Of a stretch of 64,000 nucleotides of DNA, positions 45,632 to 48,667 are shown piece by piece. The position numbers were made by a program, and so were the translations under genes. The first letter of the stretch is position 1; every line of letters starts with the position of its first letter. The notes under the pieces are model-generated. The model was not told the DNA's origin and made no database searches. It was given only the letters and a program-made list of their open reading frames with translations. Source of the stretch: Pseudooceanicola nanhaiensis (GTDB lineage: Bacteria > Pseudomonadota > Alphaproteobacteria > Rhodobacterales > Rhodobacteraceae); assembly GCF_020171315.1 (NCBI RefSeq), contig NZ_JAIUZP010000001.1:1-64000 (forward strand), written 5' to 3'.

Positions 45632-45869
45632 GGGGACTCCTTGGCTGGTTCCGGCCCCCTGTGGTGGCGGGACCGACGGTCGCAGCCTGCCGATCTGGAC
45701 GCGGAGTGCAAGGGGCCGAGGCGTCACACATCCGTTGTCGGACCGGGGCGGAGGGGATCACGGTTTCGTTGGACGATGCGCGTGGGGACCGGGCGGGGAG
45801 GGGTAAGTCTATGATATGTCGTGGAATTGCCCGTGGCTGCCCGTGGTGCCGGGGGCGTGTGTCTCCCGC

Positions 45870-45909
45870 TTGACATATTCTAGATATATCGAGATTTTAG
45901 ATATATCGA
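45870..45909 (+). promoter_or_regulatory. Promoter and probable PadR operator with two GATATATC palindromes
   Basis: TTGACA at 45870 is a good -35 box. Two copies of TAGATATATCGA start at 45881 and 45898; each contains the perfect 8-bp palindrome GATATATC and they are 17 bp apart. They overlap the spacer and -10 region of the promoter, 13 bp before the ribosome binding site, so a bound PadR dimer would block transcription. Very AT-rich compared with the flanks. Confidence 0.8.
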
Positions 45910-45921
45910 AAAGGATAGAAG

Positions 45922-47301
45922 ATGAAGCATCGAGAATTCGACGAAACAGGCGCTCCGCATCCGGCGGGCGCAAAAGGGGGGCGCGGCGAGCGGTCCCGGT
46001 CTGGCAGGGCGCGCGGCCATGGCCAGCATGAGGGACGGCCTGAGGGCCGCCATGAAGGGCGTCACGAAGGCCGCCGGGGTCGCAAAAGGATGTTCGACTA
46101 CGGCGAATTGCGGCTGCTGGTCCTGCTGATGATCAGCGAGCGCCCGCGCCACGGGTATGAGCTCATCAAGCTGATCACCGAGCAGTTCAACGGCAGCTAC
46201 AGCCCGAGCCCGGGGGTAATCTATCCGACGTTGCAGTGGCTGGAGGACATGGGCTTCGTGACCATCGAGGCCGATGACGCCGGTCGCAAGAGCTCCCGGA
46301 TCACCAGCGAGGGCGAGGCCTTCCTGGCCGCCAACAAGGCCGCCGCGCAGGACCTCCTGACGCGCAAGCCGCCGCTGGGGCGGGGCGATGCGCCGGTGGA
46401 AATCGTCGCGGCGATGGACCGGCTGAAGGAGGCACTGCGCCTGCGGCTCCATGCGCCCGGTGCCGCGCCGGAGACAGCGGCGATCCTTGCCGGAGAGATC
46501 GACGGGCTGGCAGAGCGTCTGGCCGCAGGGGCTCAGCCTGCCGAGGCCACCCCGACGGAAGAGCCGGTCATCCTGCGCCACAAGTTCGACATCCGGCGGC
46601 GCAGCCTGACGGTGCAGCAGGTAGACCGCCTGACGCCGCACATGGTCCGCATCGTCCTGCACAGCGAAGACCTCGCGGATTTCACCAGCCTCGGCGCGGA
46701 TGACCACATCAAGCTCTTCTTCGACGGCGAAGGCGACAAGCCCGAGATGCGGGATTACACCCCGCGGCGCTACGACAATGCAGCCTGCACGCTGACGCTG
46801 GATTTCGCCCTGCACGAGGCTGGCCCGGCGACCGACTGGGCCCTGAAGGCGCAGGTCGGGGACAGCCTGAACATCGGTGGCCCCAGAGGCTCGGCGGTGA
46901 TTGCGCCGGTCTTTGACTGGTACCTGCTGATCGGGGACGAGACCGCGCTGCCCGCCATTGGCCGCAAGGCCGAGGAACTGGGCGCAGGCGTGCAGGTGAT
47001 CACCCTCGCCGCCGTGCCGGAGGCCGCCGATGAACAGGTGTTCGAGACCGCGGCGGACCTGCGCCAGCACTGGGTGCACCGGCCCGTTGAGGCGGCGACG
47101 GATCCGGAGACGCTGCTGGCGGCCGCGCGGGACATCGCCCTGCCCGAGGGGCGCGGCTTCGTCTGGATCGCGGCCGAGGCACAGGTGGCCCGGGCGCTGC
47201 GCGATGCCTTCCTCGAACGGGGACATCCGAAGTCCTGGCTCAAGGCGGCGGGCTACTGGGTGAAGGGGACGGCCGCAACCAGCGACAAGGCCCTGAGCTG
47301 A
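45922..47301 (+). CDS. PadR regulator fused to siderophore-interacting ferric reductase (YqjI-YqjH type fusion)
   Basis: 459 aa. Residues 1-56 are a polar Gly/Arg/His tail with H33, H36, H44 and H48 in EGRH-like repeats. Residues 57-135 are a PadR winged helix (FDYGELRLLVLLMISERPRHGYELI, SPSPGVIYPTLQWLEDMG), closest in style to E. coli YqjI, a nickel-responsive repressor with a His-rich N-terminus. After a helical linker, residues about 217-450 form a siderophore-interacting FAD-binding reductase: FAD motif RDYTPRRY (277-284), YLLIGDETALPAIGR near 333 and a GYWVKG ending. In E. coli YqjI represses the separate gene yqjH; here both are one protein with an operator directly upstream. Start supported by AAGGATAGAAG. 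Confidence 0.88.
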   Translation: MKHREFDETGAPHPAGAKGGRGERSRSGRARGHGQHEGRPEGRHEGRHEGRRGRKRMFDYGELRLLVLLMISERPRHGYELIKLITEQFNGSYSPSPGVIYPTLQWLEDMGFVTIEADDAGRKSSRITSEGEAFLAANKAAAQDLLTRKPPLGRGDAPVEIVAAMDRLKEALRLRLHAPGAAPETAAILAGEIDGLAERLAAGAQPAEATPTEEPVILRHKFDIRRRSLTVQQVDRLTPHMVRIVLHSEDLADFTSLGADDHIKLFFDGEGDKPEMRDYTPRRYDNAACTLTLDFALHEAGPATDWALKAQVGDSLNIGGPRGSAVIAPVFDWYLLIGDETALPAIGRKAEELGAGVQVITLAAVPEAADEQVFETAADLRQHWVHRPVEAATDPETLLAAARDIALPEGRGFVWIAAEAQVARALRDAFLERGHPKSWLKAAGYWVKGTAATSDKALS

Positions 47302-47314
47302 GCCCTGAGCTGAG
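47291..47314 (+). repeat. 12-bp perfect tandem duplication over the stop codon
   Basis: CCCTGAGCTGAG occurs twice in direct succession (47291-47302 and 47303-47314). The first copy contains the last codons and the TGA stop of the PadR-reductase gene; the second copy is untranslated. This probably reflects a recent slippage duplication with no effect on the protein. Confidence 0.85.
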
Positions 47315-47662
47315 TCCCGTGCGGTCCGGGCTGGCCTTAGCCTGAACCGGACCAGAACCGAGTCGCGGTGCCGCTTGCGCGGGACGGGGTTTCCCCACGC
47401 GCCCGACTCCTTGCCGGAGGCGGGCGCTCTCGTTTCGGGGTCACGGGACCGTGTCGGGCGGGGAGGGCTGACGCCTCGTCATGATCGCGCTTGCCGCCGC
47501 GGGAGGGTGCCCCGCGCAAAGGGAAAGTGCTTGGGCACAGGTAGGGCGAAGGCACATCCGGCCCCCGGACCTGCGCGCGGGGTCATGAAGTATCCTCTTG
47601 TGAACGTGATGAATTTGGACCTAGATTTGCCGCAGTCATTTCAATGGAAGTTGGGAGCTACC
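47302..47662. other. 361-bp intergenic region upstream of the TAXI transporter
   Basis: No gene recognised. The left half is GC-rich with several short inverted repeats (for example around CCCGACTCCTTGCCGGAGGCGGG). The right end, from about 47580, becomes AT-rich (ATGAATTTGGACCTAGATTTGCC) and probably carries the promoter. GGGAGC lies just before the TAXI binding-protein start. Confidence 0.5.
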
Positions 47663-48667
47663 ATGAAACACACGAAAATTTTCGCCGGTGTCGCCCTGGC
47701 ACTGGGCCTGTCGGCCCCGATGGCCAGCGCGCAGGACATGGCGTTCTTCCGCATCGGCACCGGCGGCACCGCCGGCACCTATTACCCGATCGGCGGTCTG
47801 CTCGCGAATGCGATCTCGAACCCGCCGGGCTCGCGCGCCTGTGACCAGGGCGGCTCCTGCGGCGTGCCCGGGCTGATCGCCTCGGCGCTGTCGGCCAACG
47901 GCTCGGTTGCCAACATCAACGCCATCGCGGGCGGCTCGCTCGAGTCTGGCTTCTCGCAGTCGGACGTGGCCACCTGGGCCTACACCGGCACCGGCATCTG
48001 GGAAGGCAAGGCACCGGTCGAGAAGCTGCGCGCCATCGCCAACCTCTACCCCGAGAGCATCCACCTCGTCGCCAGCGCCGACTCGGGCATTTCGAGCGTC
48101 GCGGACCTGAAGGGCAAGCGCGTCTCGATGGACGAGCCCGGGTCCGGCACGCTGGTTGACGCCAAGATTATCCTCGAGGGCTACGGCATCGCCGAGAGCG
48201 ACATCCAGCCCGAGTACCTGAAGCCCGACCAGGCCGCCGACCGCATGCGCGACGGTGCCATGGACGCCTTCTTCTTCGTGGGCGGCTACCCCGCTGGCGC
48301 GATTTCCGAGCTGGCCAGCCAGCACGAGGTCAAGCTGATCCCGATCAGCTGTGACGAAGCCCCCAAGATCTGCGAGGACTTCGGGTTCTTCGCGCCTGAC
48401 ACCGTGCCCGGCGGCACCTACGAGGGCAACGCGGATGACGTGAACACGCTCTCCGTCGGCGCCCAGTGGGTCACCAGCGCGGACCAGCCCGAAGAGCTGA
48501 TCTACGAGATCACCAAGGCACTCTGGAACGACAACACCCGCAAGCAACTCGACGCGGGTCACGCCAAGGGCAAGATGATCACCAAGGAGACCGCCCTGAA
48601 CGGTATCGGCATCCCGCTGCACCCCGGCGCCGAGAAGTTCTACAAGGAAGCGGGTCTGCTTCAGTAA
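47663..48667 (+). CDS. TAXI family TRAP transporter solute-binding protein
   Basis: 334-aa periplasmic receptor. Signal peptide MKHTKIFAGVALALGLSAPMASAQ with cleavage near residue 24. The mature start FFRIGTGGTAGTYYPIGGLLANAIS is diagnostic of TAXI proteins, with later GGSLESGFSQSD and RVSMDEPGSGT. TAXI receptors bind carboxylates such as glutamate or 2-oxoglutarate; the ligand here is unknown. Start ATG at 47663 after GGGAGC; longer in-frame extensions have no signal-peptide logic. Followed by the fused permease 100 bp downstream, with a hairpin between. Confidence 0.93.
   Translation: MKHTKIFAGVALALGLSAPMASAQDMAFFRIGTGGTAGTYYPIGGLLANAISNPPGSRACDQGGSCGVPGLIASALSANGSVANINAIAGGSLESGFSQSDVATWAYTGTGIWEGKAPVEKLRAIANLYPESIHLVASADSGISSVADLKGKRVSMDEPGSGTLVDAKIILEGYGIAESDIQPEYLKPDQAADRMRDGAMDAFFFVGGYPAGAISELASQHEVKLIPISCDEAPKICEDFGFFAPDTVPGGTYEGNADDVNTLSVGAQWVTSADQPEELIYEITKALWNDNTRKQLDAGHAKGKMITKETALNGIGIPLHPGAEKFYKEAGLLQ

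Follow-up and report, generated by a model that had tools for sequence, protein, structure and literature searches.

A fusion of an NfeR-like PadR regulator with an NfeF-like siderophore-interacting reductase in Pseudooceanicola nanhaiensis and its recurrence in relatives

In Escherichia coli, the PadR-type regulator NfeR (YqjI) and the reductase NfeF (YqjH)—gene names taken from the E. coli record—are encoded by two divergent genes. According to passages of PMC7981267, NfeR represses nfeF and excess nickel relieves this repression; among the works cited there are a 2011 paper whose title names Fur control of nfeF, and the studies of Wang et al. (2011, 2014) on YqjI and its binding sites. The region between the two genes bears a GATATATC box, with AGATATATCTA found near both genes, and NfeR itself carries a tail rich in Cys and His.

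Enzymes that bear a DNA-binding domain of their own are few: a survey of E. coli arrives at five such enzymes, including PutA and NadR (PMC8249747). Trifunctional PutA combines flavin-dependent enzyme activity with repression of its own regulon, for which it has an N-terminal DNA-binding domain (PMC5293562).

Here, we describe a gene in the first 64,000 nucleotides of contig NZ_JAIUZP010000001.1 of Pseudooceanicola nanhaiensis—the whole stretch being referred to as the window—in which counterparts of both E. coli proteins are joined in one polypeptide. Its N-terminal part is 34% identical to NfeR (BLASTP, 63 of 185 columns), sharing HGYELIK and PSPGVIYPTL, and its C-terminal part is 34% identical to NfeF (84 of 249 columns). 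The GATATATC box stands upstream of this gene as it does between the E. coli genes; in contrast to these, the window holds one fused gene, whose tail is devoid of Cys. The same genes in the same order occur as adjacent PadR–SIP pairs in Alloyangia, Salipiger, Sinirhodobacter, Asticcacaulis and other alphaproteobacteria, but there PadR stops at a TGA and SIP begins with a start codon of its own, while other single-frame fusions show the architecture of the window gene. The layout is also like that of PutA, which however uses a ribbon-helix-helix fold, acts in proline catabolism and switches to the membrane, whereas the window protein combines PadR with, by homology, ferric-siderophore reduction. 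Judged by its sequence, the locus unites a regulator and an enzyme that are both known, in a single chain that is unusual yet recurrent. Searches of an open-licence library for a PadR–SIP fusion showed none, going by titles and the opening of abstracts, and publication elsewhere is possible. As one and the same box accompanies divergent pairs, operons, fusions with a nested start and complete fusions, the effect of fusion on regulation could be compared directly.

The fused gene and its predicted protein

The frame of the fused gene is free of internal stops (Table 1). Since 11 other intact single-frame fusions were found, it is no sequencing accident, and a frame error was rejected as the source of the fusion. 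Pfam recognizes PadR (E 2.2e-14, 53.6 bits against a cut-off of 27), FAD_binding_9 (E 6.6e-30, 104.2 bits) and SIP (E 7.9e-32, 110.7 bits, over the full profile), both reductase domains being complete, and the PadR domain is the only one above the cut-off in the whole genome. Solved relatives matched by phmmer are 4yhb (best, E 1.2e-38), 8c4l and 2gpj for SIP and, among PadR-type proteins, 2esh as the best (E 2.1e-6). Residues of both halves, in the PadR motif as well as in the reductase motifs, are invariant across the 12 intact fusions. The window protein would be expected to bind FAD and to perform NAD(P)H-dependent ferric reduction, the SIP domain presumably forming the NAD(P)H side. An earlier note on this DNA, made from the letters alone, had read here a single 459-codon frame, a complete SIP-type FAD reductase with RDYTPRRY, the loss of the Cys-rich part of the E. 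coli tail and, taken together, a YqjI–YqjH fusion; the frame, the reductase with its motif and the missing Cys were all found as claimed, and the identities to both E. coli partners support the fusion.

Table 1 Features of the fused gene and its upstream region (window positions)
Feature	Position	Strand	Remarks
TTGACA, putative -35 element	45870..45875	+	sequence only; no promoter passed the sigma-70 scan
Operator box 1 (putative), TAGATATATCGA	45881..45892	.	core GATATATC 45883-45890; conserved in relatives
Operator box 2 (putative), TAGATATATCGA	45898..45909	.	core GATATATC 45900-45907; 17 bp after box 1
Ribosome-binding region, AAAGGATAGAAG	45910..45921	+	anti-SD duplex -4.7 kcal/mol
Fused gene	45922..47301	+	ATG 45922, stop at 47301; 459 aa; NfeR-like PadR and NfeF-like siderophore-interacting FAD reductase
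His/Gly/Arg-rich tail	45922..46092	+	residues 1-57; 6 His, 0 Cys; mostly low-confidence
PadR winged-helix domain	46120..46329	+	Pfam residues 67-136; HGYE and PSPGVIYPTL, as E. coli NfeR
Two C-terminal helices of PadR half	46396..46530	+	residues 159-203; predicted structure
Linker, short, lower-confidence	46531..46569	+	residues 204-216; lacks the ATG kept here by 8 other fusions
FAD-binding domain (FAD_binding_9)	46579..46893	+	contains RDYTPRR
SIP domain	46912..47268	+	residues 331-449; GDETALPA and AAGYW

AlphaFold2, run on an alignment of 56 rows, gave a mean pLDDT of 85.6 and a pTM of 0.62. Most blocks of both domains reach a pLDDT of 86–98, residues 15–45 fall below 50, and a further weak stretch at about residues 204–216 includes residues 208–211 below 50. 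The two domains are hence well predicted, and the model leaves the placing of PadR relative to the reductase unfixed. The tail is probably disordered, and the two helices that close the PadR half might serve dimerisation.

Putative operator boxes before the gene and in relatives

Two GATATATC palindromes had been noticed before the gene and described as overlapping the promoter. Both are present, each inside an exact copy of TAGATATATCGA. Their position between TTGACA and the ribosome-binding region fits that description, but a sigma-70 scan of 45700-47700 found no promoter above threshold, and thus only the positional part of it stands. In the 64-kb window, GATATATC is observed twice against 0.18 expected, and none of 100 shuffles reached two; together with the conservation of the box in relatives, this rejects chance palindromes.

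Across the 4.8-Mb genome, GATATATC occurs exactly in five places, two of them before the fused gene, which therewith bears the only exact tandem pair; a pair search allowing 3 mismatches returned two other, nearly alike places with 3 mismatches each. With no other exact pair in the genome, a wider regulon of tandem box pairs was rejected. The remaining three exact places lie in an integrase-like frame, in a CPBP-like frame and between GntR-like and monooxygenase-like frames—labels that were read from the translations, with no family search. At the last of these (L166:2022-2029), the single box follows shortly after a TTGACA between the GntR-like and FAD-monooxygenase-like ORFs; it is possible, going by its sequence setting, that this box marks a second regulatory target.

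Among related loci, the exact box stands before 60 of 66 PadR-bearing loci (fused, paired or alone; duplicates removed by a hand list) versus 6 of 82 SIP loci with no PadR next to them, counted in the 400 nt upstream of the PadR match or, for lone SIP loci, upstream of SIP—the latter including duplicate sequences, and "lone" meaning no PadR match in the available flank of mostly 1.5 or 4 kb. By class, it is found in 11 of 13 fused rows, in 21 of 23 co-directional operons—the adjacent alphaproteobacterial pairs introduced above—in all seven divergent pairs (E. coli included) and before 21 of 23 PadR genes without SIP nearby. The two fused rows lacking an exact box are the truncated L068 and L080, the latter with two boxes of one mismatch each, again 17 bp apart. 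This spacing is the commonest between successive exact boxes (28 of 42 pairs overall) and holds for 9/9 in fused, 11/16 in co-directional and 8/11 in PadR loci without SIP, while divergent pairs show a spacing of 10 bp in 5 of 6. Five divergent rhizobial pairs (L043, L046, L047, L049 and L052) combine the 10-bp spacing with tails of 11–18 His.

By its distribution, the box is an attribute of the NfeR type of PadR, and the boxes presumably represent the PadR binding site. Since such an NfeR-type box stands before the fused gene, an autoregulatory loop—already proposed in the earlier note—is likely.

Tail, junction and proposed mode of regulation

We think it probable that a single polypeptide is at once an NAD(P)H-dependent ferric-siderophore reductase and a repressor that acts on the gene encoding it. 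The fusion would reduce ferric siderophores in the cytoplasm using NAD(P)H, while PadR dimers would bind the two GATATATC boxes and hold expression low; an inducing signal would free PadR from the DNA, which would yield more reductase and, hence, more repressor. Such a cassette would be self-contained and probably single-target, and would have arisen from an NfeR/NfeF pair when the border separating two neighbouring genes was lost. The sequences themselves show the fused frame with its two domains, the conserved box pair that is unique in the genome, the recurrence of the fusion and the missing internal start; that the protein dimerises, represses, catalyses and answers an inducing signal is what we infer from them. 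By domain content, the protein unites an enzyme and a DNA-binding domain in one chain, as trigger enzymes do.

What the signal is might be approached from the tail. The window tail bears its six His at positions 3, 13, 33, 36, 44 and 48, as compared with 12 His and 7 Cys in the E. coli NfeR tail as scored. Fusion tails have 0–7 His with a median of 3 and no Cys (11 scored, with L089 unscored and L068 left out), against a median of 14 His in divergent pairs (n=7). The suggestion that the sensed signal may differ from that of E. coli draws support from this comparison, but unfused co-directional pairs have a median of 3 His as well (n=23), and therefore tail loss is not specific to the fusion and seems to accompany operonic and fused layouts alike.

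A release of DNA by Ni2+ bound to the His tail, as in E. coli, with the reductase merely carried along, could be expected from the NfeR homology, from the relief of NfeR repression by excess nickel (a passage of PMC7981267) and from the six His of the window tail, which include the run RHEGRHEGR. Against this speak the absence of Cys, the low median in the fusions and a fusion without any tail His. As the tail lacks Cys and this last fusion, L080, belongs to the same genus, nickel sensing by the window protein is doubtful, and we consider the E. coli-like scheme unlikely.

The junction between the halves bears on the other alternatives. In 8 of the 11 other intact fusions, an internal ATG is retained where the separate reductase once began, six residues ahead of the SIP match and behind linker residues that are unconserved. 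SD-like pairing at these eight ATGs is stronger, with a mean best of -5.2 versus -2.7 kcal/mol among the scored codons of the fusions (permutation p 0.0037, treating eight related genes as independent); single genes are unremarkable, 4–30% of the codons of the same gene pairing as well as the internal ATG. These eight fusions may thus make free reductase besides the fusion. In L076 an ATG lies 20 residues ahead of the SIP match. At the junction, only a GTG is present in L002 and in the truncated L068, and window and L080 have neither ATG, GTG nor TTG; all four proteins of the window clade thus lack an ATG where the separate reductase once began. Because no start codon is left at its junction, every reductase molecule made from the window gene should carry a DNA-binding domain.

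That the halves work independently, with no other effect of the fusion than to hold repressor and enzyme at 1:1, comes close to an even chance in our estimate: the same boxes also precede pairs in which the two halves are distinct neighbouring genes, and the kept internal ATGs with their stronger SD-like pairing would permit free reductase in eight fusions. The junctions of window and L080 fit this less well, as there the reductase should stay tied to the DNA-binding half. A closer coupling, in which PadR would hold or leave the DNA depending directly on the redox or ligand state of the reductase, after the manner of PutA-type trigger enzymes, would agree with the missing ATG throughout the window clade and with the His-poor tails of most fusions (none in L080, and Cys in none of the 11), from which the input may have moved; PutA itself, as a flavoenzyme repressing its own regulon, sets the precedent (parts of PMC5293562). 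However, the pTM and the less confident linker do not point to a fixed contact between the domains, tails are equally poor in unfused co-directional pairs, and the DNA affinity of PutA itself, according to the same parts of that paper, falls only 2-fold when its flavin is reduced. Direct coupling hence appears rather improbable. It is very improbable that the PadR half is a relic with no part in regulation: a second Donghicola copy (L068), with a transposase-like ORF at the PadR start, the box gone and the SIP half open, illustrates such decay, yet the PadR motif residues are invariant in the 12 intact fusions and the boxes are kept in most fused rows.

Autorepression by the fused reductase—the reading we prefer—might also take different forms in different fusions. 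Speculatively, and with a small chance of being right, the reductase of the window clade would have taken over sensing from the metal tail, with PadR freed from the two boxes by the redox state of the flavin or by bound ferric siderophore, and the other fusions would pair a fused repressor with internally initiated free reductase. If true, the window fusion would be a one-protein, one-target iron-reduction thermostat.

Occurrence and origin of the fusions

The fusion is genuine and recurs in relatives, but few genomes have it. A GTDB scan gave 77 related loci; after addition of whole-genome and plasmid loci, 19 fused rows represent 13 distinct proteins, namely 12 intact fusions including that of the window, and the IS-truncated L068, to which the frame-broken L074 may be set in addition. 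The other single-frame fusions come from Paracoccus yeei, P. litorisediminis, Mangrovicoccus, Poseidonocella, Donghicola, the Paracoccaceae La 6 plasmid and Rhizobium paknamense. Counting the window's own, an intact fusion is present in 2 of 22 genomes of the genus, at least 4 of 394 of the family, at least 1 of 390 of the order, at least 1 of 385 of the class and at least 1 of 398 of the phylum—all lower bounds, as strict E limits applied to all five draws, at most four candidates were scored per genome in family, class, order and phylum, and 20 of the phylum matches were classified. Only the window's own is fused among the 35 classified order and phylum loci L172–L206, which stand outside tree and box counts. 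The earlier note had proposed a search for this domain architecture and for its conservation in Rhodobacterales: the fusion proved not to be unique, and it recurs in this order in a patchy manner rather than being generally conserved.

Of 512 plasmid records with a match, eight have a single place covering at least 80% of the query; two of these were inspected, and one of the two, La 6, is a fusion. Its gene is annotated solely as yqjH, that is, as a reductase, an annotation that would change. L074 (Paracoccus mutanolyticus) is related to the P. yeei fusion at 95% DNA identity but is broken, with several indels. In the second Donghicola fusion (L068:3242-3958), the ORF that replaces PadR start and boxes looks like an IS transposase by reading of its translation.

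In a tree of 43 joined PadR and SIP rows, and with the broken L074 set aside, fusions appear in about five places: the window clade of L001, L068, L002 and L080 (support 93/88); La 6 (L089); Paracoccus (L008, L009); Mangrovicoccus–Poseidonocella–Donghicola (L006, L010–L012, L090); and R. paknamense (L076), which falls among divergent rhizobial pairs (94/85, not starred). A single clade of all Rhodobacterales fusions was rejected (p-AU 2.3e-7, for 13 rows with the broken L074 and the truncated L068 included). The five places may have arisen by repeated fusion or equally—since the tree, counted by hand, needs as many changes—by repeated fission of one old fusion. At least two origins of the fusion seem likely, because the junction of L076 differs and L076 groups with divergent rhizobial pairs. 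The window protein lies closer in the tree to the Donghicola copy than to the copy of its own genus (G015, L080), which suggests horizontal transfer of the window fusion.

At 18 PadR–SIP junctions from loci between L003 and L075, every PadR frame ends in TGA, one of them (L074) being broken. An excess of same-frame unfused pairs was considered and rejected: 6 of the 17 intact pairs, L074 left out, share a frame, which at about one third is no excess. Outside the class, L177 (G872):1477-3075 has PadR followed by SIP without a frame shift, separated by one stop codon, a layout one step short of fusion.

The window gene has as neighbours an M29 peptidase and, together with a DctM permease, a binding protein of NMT1-like type. 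Around the 11 other fusions lie 43 flanking frames, of which 20 were scanned; 10 of these matched a Pfam family at the limits applied, none of them an iron-uptake family. The neighbours examined have no link to iron and differ between fusions, and hence fit a stand-alone gene. In R. paknamense, the fusion lies between a CRISPR-like array (L076:3619-3894), whose repeats are about 29 nt long and recur at intervals of 61 nt, and a Cas3-domain frame (L076:5322-8102).
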